A stretch of 21,283 nucleotides of DNA, taken from positions 1 to 21,283 of the IMG/VR virus record IMGVR_UViG_3300017765_000086; one strand, written 5' to 3'. The translations under genes and the position numbers were made by a program. This DNA comes from a virus. The notes beneath the pieces were generated by a model that had not been told where the DNA came from, made no database searches, and was given only the letters and a program-made list of their open reading frames with translations. This document shows, one piece after another, positions 10,824 to 20,577 of this stretch. Each line of letters opens with the position of its first letter. Positions within the stretch are counted from its first letter, which is position 1.

Positions 10824-10852
10824 GGGGCAGCTTAGTGTTGCCCCTTCTTTTA
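10824..10852 (+). terminator. Intrinsic terminator of the rightward early operon
   Basis: Stem GGGGCA (10824-10829) pairs with TGCCCC (10839-10844) around a nine-base loop and is followed by TTCTTTTATT (10845 on). This is a standard Rho-independent terminator for plus-strand transcription. It lies in the 35-base space between convergent genes; its T run overlaps the stop codon (10850-10852) of the minus-strand 1206-aa gene. The hairpin read from the minus strand lacks an immediate U run (UCCGUAGUUUU follows), so leftward termination would be weaker. Confidence 0.85.
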
Positions 10853-13800
10853 TTGCGACATTTTCACAGCATTTTCTACATCTTCTCTAGTCATCTGTAT
10901 GTACAATACTAAGAAGTCTAATTGATTCTCATCTAAGTCTGTAATTTCCATGTCTAAGTCTAGCTTTATTAATGCTTTTTCTACATCAACTTTAGAGACA
11001 CCACTACCTCTCTTACTTAAGTTGTAAAGCTTAAGAGTCTTAGTATCTTCTGGATCAATACTATTCTCAAGTATATCCATAGTAGTATCTTTGGAACGCT
11101 TAAGAACATCGTTAAGCATAGCAGTACGTGTCTCTGTGTTACCATCTCTCCATGCAGGAGTGTTTATAGTACGCTCAGCATTAGCCTCTAAGAACGTAAC
11201 TACATATTTGTTGATGTCATTCTGTACTTCAGGAATAAAAGACTTGATGTTAGTACGCCACTGAGGTTTACCTACTTCATTAAACATACGTTGAATAGAG
11301 GTCTGACCCGGAACCTCACGATAACCAAAGATCCTACCTATAGGAGCCATTGCAGGGGTATCAGTTAGAGCACTAAACCTTTCTGGTGCTAACTCCTTCC
11401 CTGCTAATACAGTAAAGATTTGATCTACATAACGAGTTGACTTGTTTACAAACTCTGAGCCTTGCTTACGATCAATAGGTGTGAAGTCTTCGCCTCTGCT
11501 TAGGGCAATGATCTGATTGACAGGATCAAGGGGTCTTGAGTAAGCACTGAGATACATAGATCCAGTGTCTTGTACAACTTTAATTAAACCATCTCTAACT
11601 GCAACGTCCTCTCCTGTTGCAATATCTGCAAACAAATCATAAGACATTTTAGCTGTGTCACCTAGCTGTCGTGTAAGATTTTTAGGACCAAATACAGTTA
11701 CAACTTCTCTCCACATCTCAGGCGGCACTACTCCATCCTTAACGACATGAGCACCTAAACGTCCCATAGCTTTGTAGTAGCTGTAAGGAAAGTCATACAT
11801 ACGGTTACGTATTGCACCATCTGGGCCACGCTCATCAAATAAAGCTAAGCCTTCTTCCATGTTCTTCATCTCACGAGCAGTTACAACTCCAATAAAAGAG
11901 ACACCGACTGCTGACTTAGTAAGCAACTCTAAAGGGTCACGGCTAGTACCAGCTACATACTTATGTACTAAGCTTATACCTGTATGATCAAACATATGAC
12001 CTAATGTATTGTTAAAGAACTGCCCAAAGGGAACCATTGCACCAAACACAGGAACCTTACGTAAGTCTTCTATAAATCTAGCAGCAAGTGTTAGTGCACC
12101 CTCTGCACCTGTCTTACGATCTCCTCCATAAGACTTTGCGTACACGTTACGTAGTGCATCTTCAACAGCTACAGCTTGTATTCTAACGTAGTCATCTCCC
12201 TTCATTGATTTATATAGGTTAGGATCTTGTAAGAAATCTGTGTAGCTCATGCCGTAATTTATACGTATCTGTTTGTCTAAGGCATACATAAACTCTTGTG
12301 ACTTAGTAAACAAATCCTGTGCCTTAACACCATACACAGTCTGAGCAAAGTCCATAACTTTCTCCCAAGCACCGGGATTAGTAGTATCTTCTAACTTAAA
12401 TCCTAAGTTTTTGTATACATCATCAAGCTCAATTCCTCCTGACATGTAGCGGAATAATTCTCTTTGCGATTTAGGATTGGCTGCAAGAAAAGAAAATGCT
12501 GCTTGGCGTGTAGCATAGGGACTTACTAAGTTTGTAACTTTCTGACGTTGAAGGGTAAACATAAGCTTTGATTTGTTAGCAAACTCTGTTGCTTTAGTAG
12601 TACGTCCAATAGCCATCTCACCTAGTGCACGACCTCCGTACAACGCACCTCTTATAGTATCTGCTACAGATTGCATAGCTGTGGCGTTAGACCAACCAAC
12701 AATGTTTAGTGCAGTTGTACCGGGGTGTGTAATTAACATACGAATTAAGTTCTGCTGCATTGTAGCAGCACCTTCTTTTACTGTAGCCCTTGCTGCCTCT
12801 ACAGCTGTAGGAGTAGGCGCATCAAGGGTTTCTTCTACAAGTTCATTGTATTTTTCTGCAGCTGTCTGCCCTTTGGACAATTTTAAGTCTTGTTTAAGTT
12901 TAGAAAGTATATGACCTTGACGGCCCCATTCACTAGATAAACTAGAAAGAATGTTTAACCCACCTACCAAGCTTGCAGGTTTTCCATTAGGGTTAAACTC
13001 AGGAAGTTTCTGCATGGTAGACTTATATAAAGAATTAACTTCAGCTTTAGCTTCTTTAGGTAGGGCTTTAATAGTCTCTGTTACAAAGTCTGTAAAGTTT
13101 TTAAATGTATCATCTTCATTAGATAACTTAATACCAAAGTCATCAAAGATATTCTTTAGTCCTTTAAATACATCATCTCCATCGTTTACTCCATGAAAGA
13201 ACGCACCTAGTAACTCATCTCTGCGTGGATCAGATGATCCATCTGTAGTACGCCTAAGCTTATCTCCTCTGTTTACTTTAGCTGCCCACCTAGCTGCAGC
13301 AGTACTACTTTTATTTAGTGCTTTAGTAAATTCACTAAAGTTCATATTCTTGATAGCTTCTTTATTACTCTTCTTACGAGCTTCTTTTGCTAAAGCATCT
13401 ACTGCTGCTTCAGTTGCAATGGCATTATCATGAGCTTGCATAAATAGAGGTAGAGTTGCTTCACTGTGAGGTGCCTTGTTAAGTAAGCTAAGACCATAGG
13501 CTAGTGACCCACCAAATACCCCTGTAACACCAGTAAGAGCACCTTGTAGTACGCTGTAGTTATCTTGTACATTAGCTTGCATTTGAGCTTTTTGATACAC
13601 AGTATCTACAGTAACAGCAGCAGCACTATCAAAAGCAGCTGTTGCTATTATTTCTTTGCGTGTCATTGCCTTAAGGCTTTCTTTAAAGGCACCTTCTGCA
13701 ACACCTTCAACAGCCTCACCCTTAAGGATCTGACCTATTACTCTTTGCTCAATCTGATTAGCTTGTGTCTGCATAGCTTTAGTAAGCGTACCTTTTGCTG

Positions 13801-14470
13801 CTTTCTTACCTAGCGATTCAGTGACAAGTTTCTTAACTGTTTCTTTTGCAAGACCTGCTGCAACTTTTGTAGCACCGCCTGTAATAAGTTTACCAAAACC
13901 TAAAGATACTAAGTTAATAGGGTCTACAACAAGAGCACGCCCGTAGTCGTACACAGCGTCAGCCTTTTGAGCAAGCGTGTACTCCTCAGAGAAAGCACCC
14001 TTCATGTTATCAAAAAGTTTATATGCTTGACCTGCTGCTATCTTCTTAGTCTCATCATCTGTACTAAGATAGGCTAACTCTGTGCCTGTAGTTACAGATT
14101 GACCAAAGTTAAACTTACGCATGTGGTTGACGAATGAATCCACAATCTTCTGACGCCCATGCCTAGCCTCTTGCATACCAAAACGTTGATCCATGTACTG
14201 TCCAACTACAGCGAAGTTGTTGTCAGTCATTAGGTCATTGATAGTTTGAGCATCAGGTAATGATTGTAATGTCTGTCGTGTAGCAGTAGCTTTGTCGGTA
14301 GGCTCAGCAGTTACAGAATCTTCAAGTTGATCAAAAGTTTTTAGAGTGTAAGGCTTTGCCTCTTCAACAGTTTCAAGTTGATCAAAAGTTTTTAGAGTGT
14401 AAGGTTTTACCTCTTCAACAGTTTCTTTTTCATCAAGATCTCGAAATGTTTTAAGTGTATAATTAGCCAT
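10850..14470 (-). CDS. Very large virion protein, probable DNA-ejection (internal) protein, 1206 aa
   Basis: Last gene of the leftward structural block. Three N-terminal repeats contain YTLKTF (residues 4-9, 24-29, 41-46), the last two with DQLE and nearly identical DNA. The body is Ala/Gly/Lys-rich and helical, with several weakly hydrophobic, glycine-containing stretches (about 180-215 NLVSLGFGKLITGG; about 310-335 GALTGVTGVFGGSLAYG; about 575-595 MLITHPGTTALNIVGW; about 840-855) that could insert into membranes. No lysozyme or transglycosylase motif. Size, composition and location as the last gene of a structural operon fit the internal proteins that podoviruses eject into the host envelope ahead of DNA (functional counterpart of T7 gp16); this is inference. 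ATG 14470 lies eight bases after the upstream stop, with AGGA inside the upstream coda. Confidence 0.9.
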   Translation of the reverse strand: MANYTLKTFRDLDEKETVEEVKPYTLKTFDQLETVEEAKPYTLKTFDQLEDSVTAEPTDKATATRQTLQSLPDAQTINDLMTDNNFAVVGQYMDQRFGMQEARHGRQKIVDSFVNHMRKFNFGQSVTTGTELAYLSTDDETKKIAAGQAYKLFDNMKGAFSEEYTLAQKADAVYDYGRALVVDPINLVSLGFGKLITGGATKVAAGLAKETVKKLVTESLGKKAAKGTLTKAMQTQANQIEQRVIGQILKGEAVEGVAEGAFKESLKAMTRKEIIATAAFDSAAAVTVDTVYQKAQMQANVQDNYSVLQGALTGVTGVFGGSLAYGLSLLNKAPHSEATLPLFMQAHDNAIATEAAVDALAKEARKKSNKEAIKNMNFSEFTKALNKSSTAAARWAAKVNRGDKLRRTTDGSSDPRRDELLGAFFHGVNDGDDVFKGLKNIFDDFGIKLSNEDDTFKNFTDFVTETIKALPKEAKAEVNSLYKSTMQKLPEFNPNGKPASLVGGLNILSSLSSEWGRQGHILSKLKQDLKLSKGQTAAEKYNELVEETLDAPTPTAVEAARATVKEGAATMQQNLIRMLITHPGTTALNIVGWSNATAMQSVADTIRGALYGGRALGEMAIGRTTKATEFANKSKLMFTLQRQKVTNLVSPYATRQAAFSFLAANPKSQRELFRYMSGGIELDDVYKNLGFKLEDTTNPGAWEKVMDFAQTVYGVKAQDLFTKSQEFMYALDKQIRINYGMSYTDFLQDPNLYKSMKGDDYVRIQAVAVEDALRNVYAKSYGGDRKTGAEGALTLAARFIEDLRKVPVFGAMVPFGQFFNNTLGHMFDHTGISLVHKYVAGTSRDPLELLTKSAVGVSFIGVVTAREMKNMEEGLALFDERGPDGAIRNRMYDFPYSYYKAMGRLGAHVVKDGVVPPEMWREVVTVFGPKNLTRQLGDTAKMSYDLFADIATGEDVAVRDGLIKVVQDTGSMYLSAYSRPLDPVNQIIALSRGEDFTPIDRKQGSEFVNKSTRYVDQIFTVLAGKELAPERFSALTDTPAMAPIGRIFGYREVPGQTSIQRMFNEVGKPQWRTNIKSFIPEVQNDINKYVVTFLEANAERTINTPAWRDGNTETRTAMLNDVLKRSKDTTMDILENSIDPEDTKTLKLYNLSKRGSGVSKVDVEKALIKLDLDMEITDLDENQLDFLVLYIQMTREDVENAVKMSQ
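14321..14461 (-). repeat. Tandem YTLKTF repeats in the 5' end of the 1206-aa gene
   Basis: Two copies of a 33-base stretch are identical at 14321-14353 and 14372-14404, a period of 51 bases (17 codons, Y-T-L-K-T-F-D-Q-L-E-T-V-E-E-A-K-P). A third, diverged copy (YTLKTFRDLDE) opens the protein at residues 4-14. The near-perfect DNA identity points to a recent in-frame duplication. Confidence 0.9.
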
Positions 14471-14478
14471 TAGTTTTA

Positions 14479-16509
14479 TCAGTTCCTAATTAAGTCTACT
14501 TTGCCAATAGGTCCAGACAGGCCTTGTTGATTTACTACGAAATACTCTGTACGAAATTCAACTACGTCACCATCTTTAAGATTACCTAGCTTTAATTCAT
14601 TTTTTAAACTGTCAAAAGAGTTAAACTTAATAGCATCTGGAACTGCTTGAGTGCTTCTAAGTTCTGTGTAAGGTATCTTTCCCATAGCAACTACGTCTGC
14701 AGGGTCATTAGATCCTAATATTGTTTCTTCTTTTTTCTTAGGAATTACTCTCTTTAAAAAACTTAAACCTTTATCTATTAAACTCTCTTTTTCTTCAGGA
14801 ATTTTATTATCTTCTAAGTCTTGAATTAAACCCATAACTACAGCCTGTACATCTTCAGGTGCAGTCATAATCTTTGAAGTCATCTCAAGTGCTTTTGCTT
14901 CAAGAGCTTCATTACTAAGTCCTTTAGCATCAGCTTCAAGATATTCTTTTACACTATTAAGGGCTGATGACAAAGCAAGAGTATCGGCTTTCTTAACTTC
15001 TCTGCTAGTAGTTACATCACGCTTTTGTTCTCTGTCTAAGTCTGACAATGCATTAATAGATAAAGCATCCCAATTAGAAAGGGTAGGATTACCTTTGACA
15101 GTATCAGGAACATCTAAAGATAACATCTGTTCTGTTAAGTCAGTTGGTTCATTTTCTACAGTCTCAGTTCCCATCATAACAGAAGCTGTAGACTTAGTTC
15201 CTCGTTCCTCATCCCCTAATTCAAGTAGCTCTAAAAGTTTTTGTTCTGCTTCTGAGGCTGTTAAACCAGTCACATCAATAGGTGGTAGTTTAGCTATTAT
15301 AATTTTTCCATCTCTTGTTACCGTGATATTATTATCTAAATCTACACCACCACTTAACTTTATGTTTAGGACATCGCCGGGCGCAAGTTTAGTAGACACA
15401 TTACCTTGTTGAGTAATAGGTTGTTCGTCGGGTTCCACTACTTGAATAAGACCATTTAGTATAAAGAATTTATTTCCTGACGCTACACCTTCTTCTTCTG
15501 TAGGATAAGTTTTAATATCTTCAAGAGGTGGAATATCTTTATATATTTTAAAAAACTTAGCATACTGAGGTGTAAGACCTACTCCTAAGCCGCCTGTTTC
15601 TCTTTTAGCTGTTTCACTAGAAAAGAAATTAGGTACTGATTGTAAGAAGAAAGCGTTGTTACTTAAACCACCTCTAGTAAGATCATTAAATTCTAAAAGT
15701 CCATTACCTATAGAAGGTACAAGCTTTACCATTAACTCGTAGTTATCTTCTTTAATAGCAGCTGCTAATGAATTATAAAGAGATGCGTTGTCTCCTTTTG
15801 CTAGATCTGTTAATTCTTTTGATCCTTCATAAAGTCCACTTAAAGCTACTTCAGCTTCTCTTTCTATACGTAAAAGAGTATCTGTTGCATAAGCTCTTAG
15901 TGCTTGTGGTGAATGTATTTTAGGTAAGGCACCAAAGTCTACAGATAGAGGAGAAGTCAAACTAGGTGCAGGTGTACCAGCAATACGTCTTATGTCACTC
16001 TCAGTATAGTTATCTATATATGTTTCACCACCACCTGCTTTAGGATCTAATCCCATAGCTGCAAGGAACGCATTGCTTTCATTCTCTACTGGATTATCTG
16101 TAACATTTGCAGCATACAAACCAAAAGCTTTTGTAACCATGTCCTGATATGATGTACCAGAGGGCTTATAATCTTTTGTTCTTTGCATCATTTGCTTAAC
16201 AACATCCGATGTTAATCTACTAGGGTCACTTTCAAACCCTTTAACTTTTTCATAAAGTGTAGCTAAGGCTGCTGGGCCTGAAGTATCTACAAGATATGTA
16301 AGATCTTCTGGTTCAAAATTTAAAGCTTCAAGTCGTGCTCCTATACCAATAACTTTGTTTGCTTCATCTTTAGCTTTTAATACAGCTTGTGTACCATACG
16401 TCTGAAGAAAGTCACGAGTTTTAGCTCTGTGATCCCTAACAAACTTAGCGTGATCATCTAATGACTGACCAAAGCCTTCTGCCATACCTCCAAAAAAACT
16501 CAAAGCCAT
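14479..16509 (-). CDS. Virion-associated protein with Wza-like polysaccharide-export (PES) module, 676 aa
   Basis: The first 300 residues are helical and unrecognised (starts MALSFFGGMAEGFGQSLDDHAKF). Residues about 330-360 form a short beta module (TYPTEEEGVASGNKFFILNGLIQVV). Residues 375-430 read like the PES domain of bacterial capsule exporters: LAPGDVLNIKLSG, then NITVTRDGKIIIAKLPPIDV, then GLTASEAEQKLLELL, i.e. the GDxLxIxV…VxxDGxIxxP…VxVxGLTxxEAexxL pattern of Wza-family proteins. A helical linker follows, and residues 630-670 form another small beta domain (LKDGDVVEF, EYFVVNQQG). No signal peptide or lipobox, so it is not an exported host protein. The start ATG directly follows the TAA of the upstream gene, with AGGAG in its coda. 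Probably a structural or ejection protein. Confidence 0.88.
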   Translation of the reverse strand: MALSFFGGMAEGFGQSLDDHAKFVRDHRAKTRDFLQTYGTQAVLKAKDEANKVIGIGARLEALNFEPEDLTYLVDTSGPAALATLYEKVKGFESDPSRLTSDVVKQMMQRTKDYKPSGTSYQDMVTKAFGLYAANVTDNPVENESNAFLAAMGLDPKAGGGETYIDNYTESDIRRIAGTPAPSLTSPLSVDFGALPKIHSPQALRAYATDTLLRIEREAEVALSGLYEGSKELTDLAKGDNASLYNSLAAAIKEDNYELMVKLVPSIGNGLLEFNDLTRGGLSNNAFFLQSVPNFFSSETAKRETGGLGVGLTPQYAKFFKIYKDIPPLEDIKTYPTEEEGVASGNKFFILNGLIQVVEPDEQPITQQGNVSTKLAPGDVLNIKLSGGVDLDNNITVTRDGKIIIAKLPPIDVTGLTASEAEQKLLELLELGDEERGTKSTASVMMGTETVENEPTDLTEQMLSLDVPDTVKGNPTLSNWDALSINALSDLDREQKRDVTTSREVKKADTLALSSALNSVKEYLEADAKGLSNEALEAKALEMTSKIMTAPEDVQAVVMGLIQDLEDNKIPEEKESLIDKGLSFLKRVIPKKKEETILGSNDPADVVAMGKIPYTELRSTQAVPDAIKFNSFDSLKNELKLGNLKDGDVVEFRTEYFVVNQQGLSGPIGKVDLIRN

Positions 16510-17169
16510 TTAAACACTCCTACTCATTAGACCTTTACCGCTTGGCATGGGTTCTTCATTTACAATATTTTCTTCAGCAAGCATATCTATTTTAGGTAGG
16601 TCTTCTGTTACATCTTCTGCAGACACTTCTACACCTGAGTCCATAAGATCTTGTTGCTCTTGTTCTTGTGCAGGTGTTATATCAGATTGCATAGCTTCTA
16701 AGTTATCCTCACCAGAAGAACCCATAGCACTTAAAGTTTTTCTTGCAAACTCTTTGTCACCCTTACCTAAGTTGTCACTTAGCCTCTTGCTAATCAACAT
16801 GCGAAGTCTTTCTTCTTGTAGTTCATCATCAGTCTGATCAGCTTCAAAAGTCTCTTTGTAGTCTATCCCTGCAACACGAGCCATGTATCCTAGCTCTTCC
16901 TCAATCACAGGAGCAACTATTAAGCTAACATCAATAGAGTGCATACCCTCACCTACTGCAGCTGTAAGCATACTACGTGTAAGAACATCTGTAGGGTAGC
17001 CGAAATCCATAAGGAACAGTACAGATTCTGCAACAGGCTTTTCAGACAAACGATCTAAGTGAAACATAACTGCTTCATTAGGATCTGTAATCTCAGGAGG
17101 TCTTTCCCAAGCAAAGTTACTAGGTTCATCTGTAAGAGATTGTCCGGGTATGGGTGCCATCATTGCCAT
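16510..17169 (-). CDS. Conserved marine-phage structural-block protein (PGQSLT type), 219 aa
   Basis: Soluble acidic protein of unknown role. The opening (PIPGQSLTDEPSNFAWERPPEITDPNEAVMFHLDRL) and the following block (MHSIDVSLIVAPVIEEELGYMARVAGIDY, about residues 76-104) match, from memory, a protein found in many marine myo- and podoviruses within structural gene blocks. Residues 110-219 are charged, low complexity and likely disordered (ETFEADQTDDELQEERL; QEQEQQDLMDSG), ending with a short Gly/Ser tail. The composition would suit a scaffold or assembly chaperone, but this is conjecture. Start could be ATG 17169, 17163 or 17160. It is followed without any gap by the PES-module gene. Confidence 0.85.
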   Translation of the reverse strand: MAMMAPIPGQSLTDEPSNFAWERPPEITDPNEAVMFHLDRLSEKPVAESVLFLMDFGYPTDVLTRSMLTAAVGEGMHSIDVSLIVAPVIEEELGYMARVAGIDYKETFEADQTDDELQEERLRMLISKRLSDNLGKGDKEFARKTLSAMGSSGEDNLEAMQSDITPAQEQEQQDLMDSGVEVSAEDVTEDLPKIDMLAEENIVNEEPMPSGKGLMSRSV

Positions 17170-17184
17170 ATTTCTTTTACCTTA

Positions 17185-17628
17185 CTATTTAGTGAAACCT
17201 GCACCGAAGTACAAGCCTATGATTGCTGATACAATATGTGTATCTAGTGGTGTTATTACAAAGCCGTTAGCTGACTTCCATTGTATTGCTTCTTCAGGAC
17301 CAAATAGCCAATTCATAAAGCCACCTTGCACTTCTGTGTAACCTACAATAACGCTTACATCAGGATACCACACTGCCACTACCTTTGGCAAGACAATAAT
17401 TGATCCTACTGCAGCTAATGCTATAAGCCTACGTGTCCAAGCAAAGTGTGAGTCAGTCTTACCTGCATCACGTGCAGCGTTAACTTGGTTAGCTTTGAAA
17501 TTAGCATTAGCTAAGAGCATCTTATTCTGTTCAGCTTTACTCTTGTTAGACTGACCCCAGATAGACATGACTCCACCTAAGATGGTAGAGAAAAGCATAG
17601 TAATTAATTCTAAAGGTAGACCAAACAT
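17185..17628 (-). CDS. Three-TM membrane protein, candidate holin or ejection-channel component
   Basis: 147 aa with three hydrophobic segments: residues 5-24 (LELITMLFSTILGGVMSIWG), about 67-88 (RLIALAAVGSIIVLPKVVAVWY) and about 130-145 (HIVSAIIGLYFGAGF). Between the first and second lies a charged helix (NKSKAEQNKMLLANANFKANQVNAARDAG). Its ATG overlaps the upstream stop as TAATG (17630-17626), with AGGA upstream. Location among virion genes is compatible with a holin or with a small protein inserted in the host membrane during DNA entry; sequence alone does not decide. No dual-start or other holin hallmark is clear. Confidence 0.85.
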   Translation of the reverse strand: MFGLPLELITMLFSTILGGVMSIWGQSNKSKAEQNKMLLANANFKANQVNAARDAGKTDSHFAWTRRLIALAAVGSIIVLPKVVAVWYPDVSVIVGYTEVQGGFMNWLFGPEEAIQWKSANGFVITPLDTHIVSAIIGLYFGAGFTK

Positions 17629-18518
17629 TATTTTAATCCTGCTTTTATTATATCATCTGTAAAGTAACTTAGTGCTTCTTCCCCACCTTCTGCTCTAGCT
17701 GTGGCTTTAATCCACTCCAGCATATTTGTTTTTGTAGGAATCTTAGCTTTTTCGCTATCTAATCCTTGGCTCTGAGCTATAACTAATGCATAGTTTTTTA
17801 AGTGTGGTAACAAAGAACCTGTCTTTCTAAAGTGTGCTCTTTCGTCTGGCTCAGAAGCATAACGATTAACATATTCTTCTATAGTAGATGTTGCCTTTAT
17901 GTTAGCTTCTATAACTTTTTTAAGTGCACGAACACCTAACTCAGGAGAAGAAAAAGAAGCAAATGTTTCTTCTGTGTCTAAATTAGTTTGTCCTTTCCAC
18001 TTATTCTTTGATGAGTTTAAAATGTTTCCTAGATTGTTGTTACGCACATTCAGTGGAGAGTCTGCATTTACAGTTAGTGAGGCAGGTCTGAGCTTAGGTC
18101 TACCCATAAGGCCTACTGTATCTTTATCTTTATTTCCTTTTTCTTTTTTAGCGGCAATAGCTTCACGATCTGGTCTAGCTAAACCTAAAGGGTCTGGACC
18201 TTGTGATGCATTAGATTCCTCATCTCCCATTAAGAGAGTCATCCAAGACTTACCTACATTAGCAATTCTTTTTTCGTTGTCAGCATCCATCTGTTTGTTT
18301 TCTTCTTTCCTTGCACCCAAGGATCTTTGACGCATAGAATCTACAGTTTGTTTTGTGTCTGCTAAAGTATTTGCAGCAGCTTTTACGCCCTGACCTGTAG
18401 TAGCAGAGGCTGATTCACTAAGTGCTTGCTCAATAGCAGCTTGAATAGAATCGCCATCAATCTCTTCTACTATAGCATTTCGCATATCTGCACTGTTGTT
18501 TTTGCCACCAAATGTCAT
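17628..18518 (-). CDS. Virion protein with P5-like RNNNLGNI domain, 296 aa
   Basis: The C-terminal half (residues 155-296) carries NVRNNNLGNI (158-167), WKGQT, FASFSSPELGVRALKKVI and TIEEYVNRYA: the pattern of a phage domain usually labelled structural protein P5 or virion peptidoglycan-associated protein, whose typical form is RNNNPGNI…W.GQ…F..F.SPE.GIRA. The N-terminal half is helical, charged and Gln/Ser-rich. Start chosen at ATG 18518 because AAGG (18530-18527) lies eight bases upstream and the gene then sits 28 bases after the preceding stop. A longer frame from 18644 is open but would overlap the upstream gene by 98 bases, and its extra signal-like residues are read from that gene's own coding DNA. 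Possible wall-degrading or wall-binding role; catalytic residues not identified. Confidence 0.85.
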   Translation of the reverse strand: MTFGGKNNSADMRNAIVEEIDGDSIQAAIEQALSESASATTGQGVKAAANTLADTKQTVDSMRQRSLGARKEENKQMDADNEKRIANVGKSWMTLLMGDEESNASQGPDPLGLARPDREAIAAKKEKGNKDKDTVGLMGRPKLRPASLTVNADSPLNVRNNNLGNILNSSKNKWKGQTNLDTEETFASFSSPELGVRALKKVIEANIKATSTIEEYVNRYASEPDERAHFRKTGSLLPHLKNYALVIAQSQGLDSEKAKIPTKTNMLEWIKATARAEGGEEALSYFTDDIIKAGLK

Positions 18519-18546
18519 ATCTAATACCTTGTTTTTATCATTATTA

Positions 18547-20577
18547 TTATACTGCTGCCCCAGTACTGCCTGTGATACCATAGAAAAGAAGCTTACCAAA
18601 TAAACCACCAATAGCACTCTGTGAATCTGCTGCAATTTGTGCATCTATAGCTGCCTTCTGTGCTGTTATACCTAACTGTTGCATAATTATATTGTTTGCA
18701 CGATCTGATGAACTCTCTGCTGACTTCCATGCCATAGACATCATGTCACGCTCACGCTGCCAGATCTGATCTATTGTAGATGCAGTAAAAGCATTAGCTG
18801 TTTTAGCAGACTCAGCGTTAGCTATATTCTGTGCAGCACTATTTGTAGTCGCTACCTTCTGTCTCCAAGATGCATTTGCTTGTGCAATCACAAGTTGATT
18901 AGTTGCGTTGAATTGATCTCTCTGATTTATTACATCTGTATTAAACTTAGTCATAGCATTTGTAGCATCAGCATCAAACTGAGCCATAGCATTAGACTGA
19001 CTTACATTAAATTGTTCTACTTGTGATTTCATATTAGCCATGAATTGATTAGTTTGATTTTCACTAGTAGCGTTAAATTGATTTGCTGCATTCTGTGCTG
19101 CTGTGTCAGTAAGAATAGATTGGATCATACTCTGAGACTTAAAGATTTCTGTCTGTTGTCTGTTAGACAAGTTAGACATATCCATCTGTAAGAAAGACTG
19201 AGCATTCTGTGCTGCAGCTTGTTGCTGATTAGATAAGTTAGATAACTCTAGGTTAGCTATAGCGGATGCTTCAGCCATTACCATAGCTTGACGGTTATTT
19301 AGATTAGCCATGTTAACTGTATTAGCGTTACGAGAGTTCTCTAGTGCTACCTGTTGTTCAGCAGTAAAGTTCATGTTGGCCCTGTCAGCAATACGAGATG
19401 CGTTTTGAACTTTAGCTTGGAAGTTCTGGTCAAATTCCTGACCCATAAATGCAGCACGTTGTTCAGCTGCAAGCATGGCACGTTGTTGTCTGTTCGACAA
19501 GTTAGCCATCTCAAAGCCAGCTACAGTCTGTGCATCTGCAGCAGCTATAGGTAGTGCAGCTTCCATTGCAGCTTGTACAAGTGCTTGTCCTGCCATAGAT
19601 GAAGCACCTAAACCACGAGCAGTCATTGCAGCTGTAGCATTACGCAATGCTCCTGCAGCCCACGCAGGTGTAGCCCCTTCTTCAAAGTCTGCCATCAAGC
19701 CATCAAGTTGACCTTTTACAGTAGCTTTCTCTGAAGGCGTAGCCTCTGCAGCTTGCACTTGCTCTGTAAAAGCAGCAGCCTTAACAGCATCAGCTGAGCC
19801 AGAAATAATTTCCCCTTCTTGAATTTCCCTAGTGACAGGGTTATTCATTACAATACTACTACCTTGTGCTGCTTTTACGTCACCTACTGCAGTGTCAGTA
19901 GGCTCCATAGTTACACCCTCAAAGGTAGACCCTTCTGAAAGTGTACCTTGAGCAGCTTGTGTCTTATCTACTTCAGTTTGTACTTCAGACTTAGACGTAT
20001 CAACTTCTGCTTTAGATGTAGTAACAGCATCAGGAGTAATAGCTTGATCTGCATCTCCTACTTTAGTGACAGTACCTTGAGGTGCTGGGCCTAATTCTCC
20101 TGTACCAGTAGTAATAAGCTGATCACTAGTAGGAGTAATTTTATCTACGGTTTGATCTGTCGTTAACGATGCAGGATCAACTATTGCATCTGCAGTTTTT
20201 TGTCTTACTGCACCTTGTACTATATTAGAAAGCTCTCCTTGTAATTCATTGACTTTATTCTGGGCGTCAGTTACTTTTTGTTGAGCAGCATTAGTTCCAT
20301 CAACATTAACTGGCAATCCTTCAGCAACCATTTTAGCAGTTTGAGCTTGTTCATTAGCTAACAAAGTTTGTTGTTTAATAAGATTTTGTTTTGCAGCTGT
20401 TAACTGACTATTTAGTTTTGTGGTGTCTCCACCTTCAGCATAGCCTGAAACCTTTTTAGCCTTAGCTTCTGCTGCTTCAGCTTCTGCTTCAGAGCCATAA
20501 GATTTACCTATAGTAGACCCATGCTCTCCTGTCCAAGACCCTCCAGATCCACCAGCACTAACTAAAAATTTTGCCAT
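18547..20577 (-). CDS. Virion protein with long hendecad (11-residue) repeat array, 676 aa
   Basis: Residues 1-50 are Gly/Ser/Ala-rich, 51-125 a coiled coil (LNSQLTAAKQNLIKQQTLLA), 130-300 a Thr/Asp/Gln-rich probably disordered linker. From residue 355 to 618 the sequence falls into about 24 consecutive 11-residue units in one phase; the first part alternates units so that MANLSNRQQ-like motifs recur every 22 residues (425-430, 445-450, 467-474), the second has QFNxxxxNxxx every 11 (499-560). The C-terminus (643-676) ends in a short hydrophobic segment (GGLFGKLLFYGITG). Such 11-residue periodicity predicts a right-handed coiled coil. Probable internal/ejection or tail-fibre-like role; unassigned. 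Ribosome site is weak (AAGAAAG); 21 bases separate it from the gene before. Confidence 0.9.
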   Translation of the reverse strand: MAKFLVSAGGSGGSWTGEHGSTIGKSYGSEAEAEAAEAKAKKVSGYAEGGDTTKLNSQLTAAKQNLIKQQTLLANEQAQTAKMVAEGLPVNVDGTNAAQQKVTDAQNKVNELQGELSNIVQGAVRQKTADAIVDPASLTTDQTVDKITPTSDQLITTGTGELGPAPQGTVTKVGDADQAITPDAVTTSKAEVDTSKSEVQTEVDKTQAAQGTLSEGSTFEGVTMEPTDTAVGDVKAAQGSSIVMNNPVTREIQEGEIISGSADAVKAAAFTEQVQAAEATPSEKATVKGQLDGLMADFEEGATPAWAAGALRNATAAMTARGLGASSMAGQALVQAAMEAALPIAAADAQTVAGFEMANLSNRQQRAMLAAEQRAAFMGQEFDQNFQAKVQNASRIADRANMNFTAEQQVALENSRNANTVNMANLNNRQAMVMAEASAIANLELSNLSNQQQAAAQNAQSFLQMDMSNLSNRQQTEIFKSQSMIQSILTDTAAQNAANQFNATSENQTNQFMANMKSQVEQFNVSQSNAMAQFDADATNAMTKFNTDVINQRDQFNATNQLVIAQANASWRQKVATTNSAAQNIANAESAKTANAFTASTIDQIWQRERDMMSMAWKSAESSSDRANNIIMQQLGITAQKAAIDAQIAADSQSAIGGLFGKLLFYGITGSTGAAV
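18724..19515 (-). repeat. 24 in-phase hendecad protein repeats
   Basis: Codes for residues 355-618 of the 676-aa virion protein. Units begin at 355, 366, 377 … and keep register to the end, with large hydrophobics (F, M, L, V) at fixed places and N/Q/S elsewhere. At the DNA level the copies have diverged (only the protein period is obvious), so the array is old and under selection rather than a recent expansion. Confidence 0.8.

Follow-up and report, generated by a model that had tools for sequence, protein, structure and literature searches.

Proteins built on units of 11 residues (hendecads) are known from phages of very different architecture. Siphophage tape-measure proteins contain a variable number of 11-amino-acid units that carry aromatic markers (Belcaid 2011, PMC3271669; TP901-1, PMC5099701), and the DNA pilot protein H of phiX174 forms a tube with 11-amino-acid repeats (PMC7354561). 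In phage SU10, gp20-24 are present in the virion and are lost with genome release (PMC9509320), and in the N4/DEV ejectosome, N4 gp51/gp52 make a helical trans-envelope channel (PMC12633501). The phages of the HMO-2011-type group, to which the phage described here is assigned, are short-tailed (PMC6918029; PMC9038755).

The window analyzed here is the whole of a viral DNA of 21,283 nucleotides (IMG/VR record IMGVR_UViG_3300017765_000086). Its plus strand carries thyX and genes for a DnaB-type helicase, a family A DNA polymerase, endonuclease I, MazG and a B12-dependent ribonucleotide reductase. The structural block lies on the minus strand and follows the gene order of Puniceispirillum phage HMO-2011. 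Judged from this gene set and gene order, the window is a fragment of an HMO-2011-type marine podovirus. One protein of the block consists in large part of hendecads; it has no match to any Pfam, PHROG or NCBIfam model, but shares 60% identity (tblastn) with HMO-2011 phage1322_25, the gene of which occupies the matching position. Its parts are as follows.

18547 to 20577, minus strand: coding sequence of the hendecad protein, 676 amino acids (open reading frame; orthologue of HMO-2011 phage1322_25)
19903 to 20577, minus strand: variable N-terminal region, residues 1-225, in relatives from 75 residues shorter to 681 longer than here; site of LysM in a subclade (length differences among relatives)
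19522 to 19680, minus strand: conserved helical domain, residues 300-352 (PxWA...RGLxxSS...PIAxxDA), which contains the N-anchor P343 and precedes the array (conservation in all clades)
18865 to 19551, minus strand: hendecad array, P343 to W571, a distance of 228 residues or about 20.7 hendecads (period, length rule, phase)
19093 to 19515, minus strand: sub-block 1, residues 355-495, NLSNRQQ type, amide face opposite a charged face (sequence, helical wheel)
18823 to 19092, minus strand: sub-block 2, residues 496-585, QFN type, F every 11 residues (sequence, helical wheel)
18550 to 18864, minus strand: C-terminal tail, residues 572-676, with a Gly-rich hydrophobic segment at its end (sequence comparison, Pfam)

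The C-terminus of the family is, as far as sequence comparison and Pfam can tell, a mosaic, the tail of the window protein being replaced in relatives by an S74 domain or by a CWVAREVYG module. The latter (CWVAREVYG..W..FR.W...AP.W) stands after the array in relatives L082, L070, L078, L081, L039 and L149, in place of S74 or the short tail. A prophage search for the family returned only phage-like contigs binned into MAGs. One and the same pair of phage-like contigs, of 55,371 and 62,825 bases (L384-L387), occurs in two unrelated bacterial MAGs, from Flavobacteriales and Neomarinimicrobiota, an apparent binning artefact. T4-like cyanophages were considered as relatives and dropped, since none was found among the 50,697 phage records searched.

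The initial annotation, made from the sequence alone, had assigned an 11-residue period to residues 355-618 (18724-19515). The coordinates are correct for the reading frame 18547-20577 on the minus strand, which the annotation had not named, and the period analysis proposed at the time gives a highly significant result by both lag identity and spectra. Self-identity at lags of 11, 22, 33 and 44 residues reaches z = 4.4, 5.0, 3.7 and 6.7 (0 of 2000 shuffles as high), and the spectrum of asparagine has its maximum, a power of 21.8, at 2.74 residues (11/4), the 99% null being 9.3. The glutamine spectrum peaks at 3.66 residues (11/3), where its power of 8.7 narrowly misses the 99% null of 9.1 when glutamine is taken alone. 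Asparagine occupies the fifth register position, in the numbering of the initial annotation, in 14 of 24 hendecads (p = 5e-7), and in 200-residue windows the protein scores z = 10.2 at period 11. The register is as strict as was claimed: the family-averaged phase stays within 140-198 degrees over approximately residues 336-632 and a slip of one residue would cost 131 degrees, which leaves no stutter in the array. The count of 24 uninterrupted repeats was generous, since the last three (residues 586-618) lack the N motif and about 21 hendecads are clear. Likewise, QFN recurs every 11 residues as described, but only in the second block (about 495-585); the NLSNRQQ block (about 355-495) has its strongest lag at 44 and a further one at 22. 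A low-complexity or DNA tandem-repeat artefact was considered and ruled out, as TRF detects no tandem repeat in the DNA of the window and the DNA periodicity is weak (identity of 0.356 at a 33-base lag, background 0.293).

Repeat number was then compared among related phages, another check that had been proposed for this protein. Relatives were gathered from IMG/VR and from phage records, and array length was taken as the distance from the N-anchor proline (PIAxxDA, residue 343 in the window) to the C-anchor tryptophan (residue 571); placement of the anchors by profile and by pairwise alignment disagreed in 0 of 336 cases. The length equals 8 modulo 11 in each of the 220 measurable relatives of the first set, in all 116 sequences fetched after the rule had been stated and in eight more relatives measured by hand alignment. 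Across these 344 relatives the rod lengthens and shortens only in whole 11-residue units, and 14 distinct lengths occur (118, 140, 151, 162, 173, 184, 217, 228, 283, 316, 338, 426, 448 and 536 residues). The flanks served as negative controls: the lengths of the N-terminal region (131 distinct values) and of the C-terminal tail cover all residues modulo 11. On a tree built from the array flanks at least nine length changes are required, and by our own arithmetic nine indels obeying the rule would arise by chance with a probability of about 4e-10, if lengths were uniform modulo 11 and changes independent. In the HMO group the array is near-constant, with 228 residues in 156 sequences and 217 in two, while the N-terminus spans -75 to +681. 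One relative (L076) lacks exactly residues 531-541, a single hendecad of sub-block 2. The longest array, in a protein of 1549 amino acids (L245), measures 536 residues between the anchors, or about 80 nm if it is one helix.

The rule could also have arisen solely because similar units recombine, as a by-product of mutation with no structural constraint on the register. The nearly identical relatives L226 and L231 differ by 22 residues, and the deletion fuses two NLxNRQQ units (NLNNRQQ/NLSNRQQ), which identifies unit recombination as one source of length change; in some long members (L225, L371, L083) the units are about 70% alike. However, the window has the weak DNA periodicity and the absence of tandem repeats given above, and 344 deeply diverged sequences contain no out-of-register indel although their tails are free to vary. 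We consider recombination as the sole cause very improbable. Array length is probably shaped both by recombination of units and by selection against breaks in the register, two effects that are inseparable in the present data. The rule is a clean and falsifiable constraint, and it shows that the rod is modular.

The initial annotation had also predicted one very long helix, and this part stands. A single proline is found in 49,038 array residues, compared to 5.8% in the N-terminal region, and none in the 18,105 array residues of a second sequence set; such a near-absence of proline makes the array almost certainly a continuous alpha helix. An AlphaFold monomer, although of low confidence (pLDDT 50, pTM 0.19), has helices at 328-400, 405-486 and 492-657 with two short breaks; it backs the helix without indicating a tertiary or quaternary fold. 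On an 11/3 helical wheel, sub-block 1 has an amide face at about 0-65 degrees, a charged face at about 165-195 degrees and two separate hydrophobic seams, and sub-block 2 has a single hydrophobic face with F (amplitude 1.23). Only in sub-block 2 does phenylalanine mark the unit, with 61% of the cells carrying it at a single register position. By these patterns, sub-block 1 would suit a tube or a polar-core bundle and sub-block 2 an ordinary coiled coil. The right-handed coiled coil that had been proposed is plausible, as predicted from 11/3 geometry.

Alternatively, the hendecads may form amphipathic helices that rest flat on a membrane. Amphipathic repeats of 11 residues are typical of apolipoproteins and alpha-synuclein, and the only PDB sequence matches of the protein are weak ones to KMP-11 (E 0.29-0.35). 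The array, with 28% N/Q and a net charge of -3, is nevertheless unlike a lysine-bordered hydrophobic face, and sub-block 1 has two hydrophobic seams, not one. Membrane-bound helices of this kind seem scarcely credible for this protein.

The genes that follow the hendecad gene in the structural block are the following.

17628 to 18644, minus strand: lysin-like gene, 338 amino acids, next in the block (phrog_873; weak Glucosaminidase match below the curated cutoff)
17185 to 17628, minus strand: 147-amino-acid protein with hydrophobic segments, function unassigned (phrog_38283)
16510 to 17169, minus strand: 219-amino-acid cassette protein (present in almost the same set of phage records as the hendecad protein)
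14479 to 16509, minus strand: 676-amino-acid cassette protein with a Poly_export domain at residues 372-429 (PF02563, E 8.5e-10)
10850 to 14470, minus strand: 1206-amino-acid cassette protein, whose gene ends the structural module (open reading frame, HMO-2011 gene order)

The hendecad reading frame overlaps the start of the lysin-like one by 98 bases (18547-18644); the lysin-like gene may in fact begin further downstream than called. The 219-amino-acid protein has an all-helical AlphaFold model with a good core; a search with this fold gave no PDB match and one viral protein in BFVD (E 1e-7). Residues 1-52 of the 1206-amino-acid protein hold three tandem copies of a YTLKTFxxL-like motif. Poly_export domains make the ring of Wza-type export channels. 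The domain was considered as a feature of the whole cassette and rejected, for it is present only in the window version among those tested; it was not detected in the counterparts of ten relatives and so looks like a recent gain. A reading as a defence system was likewise dropped, with no PADLOC match. Genes annotated as HlyC-like toxin-activating lysine-acyltransferase or acyltransferase occur near the hendecad gene in HTVC115P (L084:13744-14193), CRP-235 (L166:218-640) and CRP-738 (L167:487-942), and it is possible that the enzyme acylates a cassette protein.

The gene order itself is conserved. Behind the hendecad gene, either directly or after intervening small or lysin genes, come a protein of about 150-220 amino acids and two large proteins, with which the structural module ends; this order holds for phages of SAR116, Roseobacter, SAR11, Vibrio, Aeromonas, Pseudoalteromonas and Rhizobium. 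Among the largest cassette proteins there are matches to families of virion structural proteins (Slicky01) and a lysin-like region (HTVC115P). In HTVC115P, the last cassette protein (L084:18165-23843, 1893 amino acids) carries a lysin-like region (phrog_7348) that recalls T7 gp16. By analogy, the block has the layout of podoviral ejection cassettes, and SU10 gp21 sits in the slot that matches the hendecad gene. Members of the CRP-235-like subclade end in an S74 chaperone, several of them also with an N-terminal LysM (Pfam); within the family S74 is confined to these relatives and is absent from the window protein. Proteins with an S74 tail open the annotated ejection cassettes of Salmonella 7-11, H6/1 and AH02. 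Profile comparison of the four cassette proteins with T7 gp14-16, P22 gp7/20/16, N4 gp50-54, SU10 gp20-24, 7-11 gp20-24 and H6/1 gave hhalign probabilities below 3%, and virion proteomics for a member of the hendecad family was not found in the open literature.

From position and domains, we lean with modest confidence towards the hendecad protein being a putative internal or tail-associated virion protein in the first slot of a podoviral DNA-ejection cassette. Its putative rod probably helps to bring DNA across the bacterial envelope. The array would form a continuous alpha-helical rod of whole hendecads, and parallel rods would self-associate through polar N/Q-rich contacts into a trimer or a larger tube. 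At infection it would be delivered along with the products of the downstream cassette genes, one small protein and two large ones, and would form part of a conduit for DNA through the envelope. Units would be gained and lost whole for two reasons: the rod can pack only while its 11/3 register is intact, and related units recombine.

The initial annotation had related a helix of about 40 nm to the width of a Gram-negative envelope. That link is unsupported: homologous rods of 118-536 residues would measure about 18-80 nm at 1.5 angstrom per residue, and two SAR11 phages differ almost twofold, with 316 residues in HTVC115P and 162 in HTVC033P. With such a spread, and an array length independent of the host, the rod as an envelope-width ruler was rejected.

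Fibre shafts vary by whole repeats, and the protein could sit on the outside of the particle as a trimeric needle or plug of the tail or as the shaft of a fibre, in which a hendecad shaft is combined with an S74 chaperone and a variable N-terminal surface domain. Its place agrees with this, as needle gene 26 of P22 stands directly before 14-7-20-16 and tail-fibre genes lie just upstream in HMO-2011. Fibres usually attach via a conserved N-terminus, but here the variable end is N-terminal; P22 gp26 is made of heptads, not hendecads (z of 3.9 at period 7 and 0.8 at period 11), and LysM suggests contact with peptidoglycan. S74 serves tailspikes as a C-terminal trimerising chaperone (PMC8326128); being typical of tail fibres and spikes as well, it does not single out ejection. 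Against a fibre or needle, most family members lack it. An external needle or fibre is thus unlikely, though far from negligible, and the ejection protein stays the preferred reading.

In the YadA stalk (15-residue repeats) and in tetrabrachion, too, right-handed repeats extend over long stretches, in some cases with N in the core. The hendecad protein resembles them in its long repeats, with handedness here predicted, but they are surface adhesins and layer proteins, not phage cassette proteins. For the N4/DEV ejectosome, as in the present block, the structural module closes with a small protein and then larger ones; N4 gp51/gp52, in contrast, lack hendecads and show no homology. SU10 gp21, 7-11 gp020 and H6/1 gp17 likewise hold the first slot, in Kuravirus-like and P22-like ejection cassettes, the S74 C-terminus being common to 7-11, H6/1 and the subclade; unlike the hendecad protein, SU10 gp21 and 7-11 gp020 have no 11-residue period, and they share no profile homology with it outside S74. 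Gp17 of Pseudoalteromonas phage H6/1 (L238:4149-5225), which carries S74 and is a putative ejection protein, shows a strong period of 11 residues (z = 9.8) while lacking profile homology to the family. Among T7 gp13-16, P22 gp7/8/14/16/20/26 and N4 gp50-54 and gp57, none exceeds z = 2.8 at period 11. The view that hendecads are unusual for podoviral ejection proteins consequently holds for T7, P22, N4 and SU10, but not for H6/1 gp17, and it overlooked the 11-amino-acid repeats known from siphophage tape-measure proteins and from the phiX174 H tube.

With H the protein shares a long alpha-helical array with hendecads and its composition (N+Q 26-28%, hydrophobic 24-25%). Register classes of sub-block 1 correlate weakly with H hendecads, in one of two tests (r 0.56, p 0.04), those of sub-block 2 giving r 0.34 and p 0.47. 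H differs in having three hendecads and 11 heptads in 121 residues, whereas the present arrays consist of hendecads only, over 118-536 residues, in an unrelated phage; no sequence homology between the two was found. An amide-lined alpha-helical barrel made of the hendecads, as a dsDNA-podophage counterpart of the H tube, is conceivable but rather doubtful; its length, 118-536 residues or about 18-80 nm, would evolve in steps of 1.6 nm as whole hendecads are gained and lost. If so, short-tailed phages would have an ejectable tail extension built on the siphophage tape-measure unit.

Of the known systems, siphophage tape-measure proteins, with 11-amino-acid units gained and lost, come closest to the hendecad rod. 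Both have 11-residue units, whole units that come and go, and a role as virion protein in DNA delivery (here putative); the aromatic marker at a fixed position of the siphophage unit has a partial counterpart here, in sub-block 2 only. A podoviral counterpart would be a rod in the lumen of tail or portal, whose hendecads set or fill an internal length and which is expelled before the DNA. The variable unit numbers with F/W markers of the siphophage proteins (PMC3271669; PMC5099701) and the phenylalanines of the QFN block speak for it. Yet the group is short-tailed (PMC6918029) with rods of up to 536 residues, about 80 nm, homology is not shown, and the near-invariant 228 residues of the HMO group have no known tail-length reason, which makes this counterpart quite improbable. 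The hendecad protein is set apart from siphophage tape measures by its short-tailed phages without a proven role in tail length, its N/Q-rich composition and the LysM/S74 fusions of a subclade. We describe it as a putative modular rod of DNA delivery and not as a member of the tape-measure or H family. The 8-modulo-11 rule joins putative podoviral DNA delivery to the 11-amino-acid units known from tape-measure proteins.
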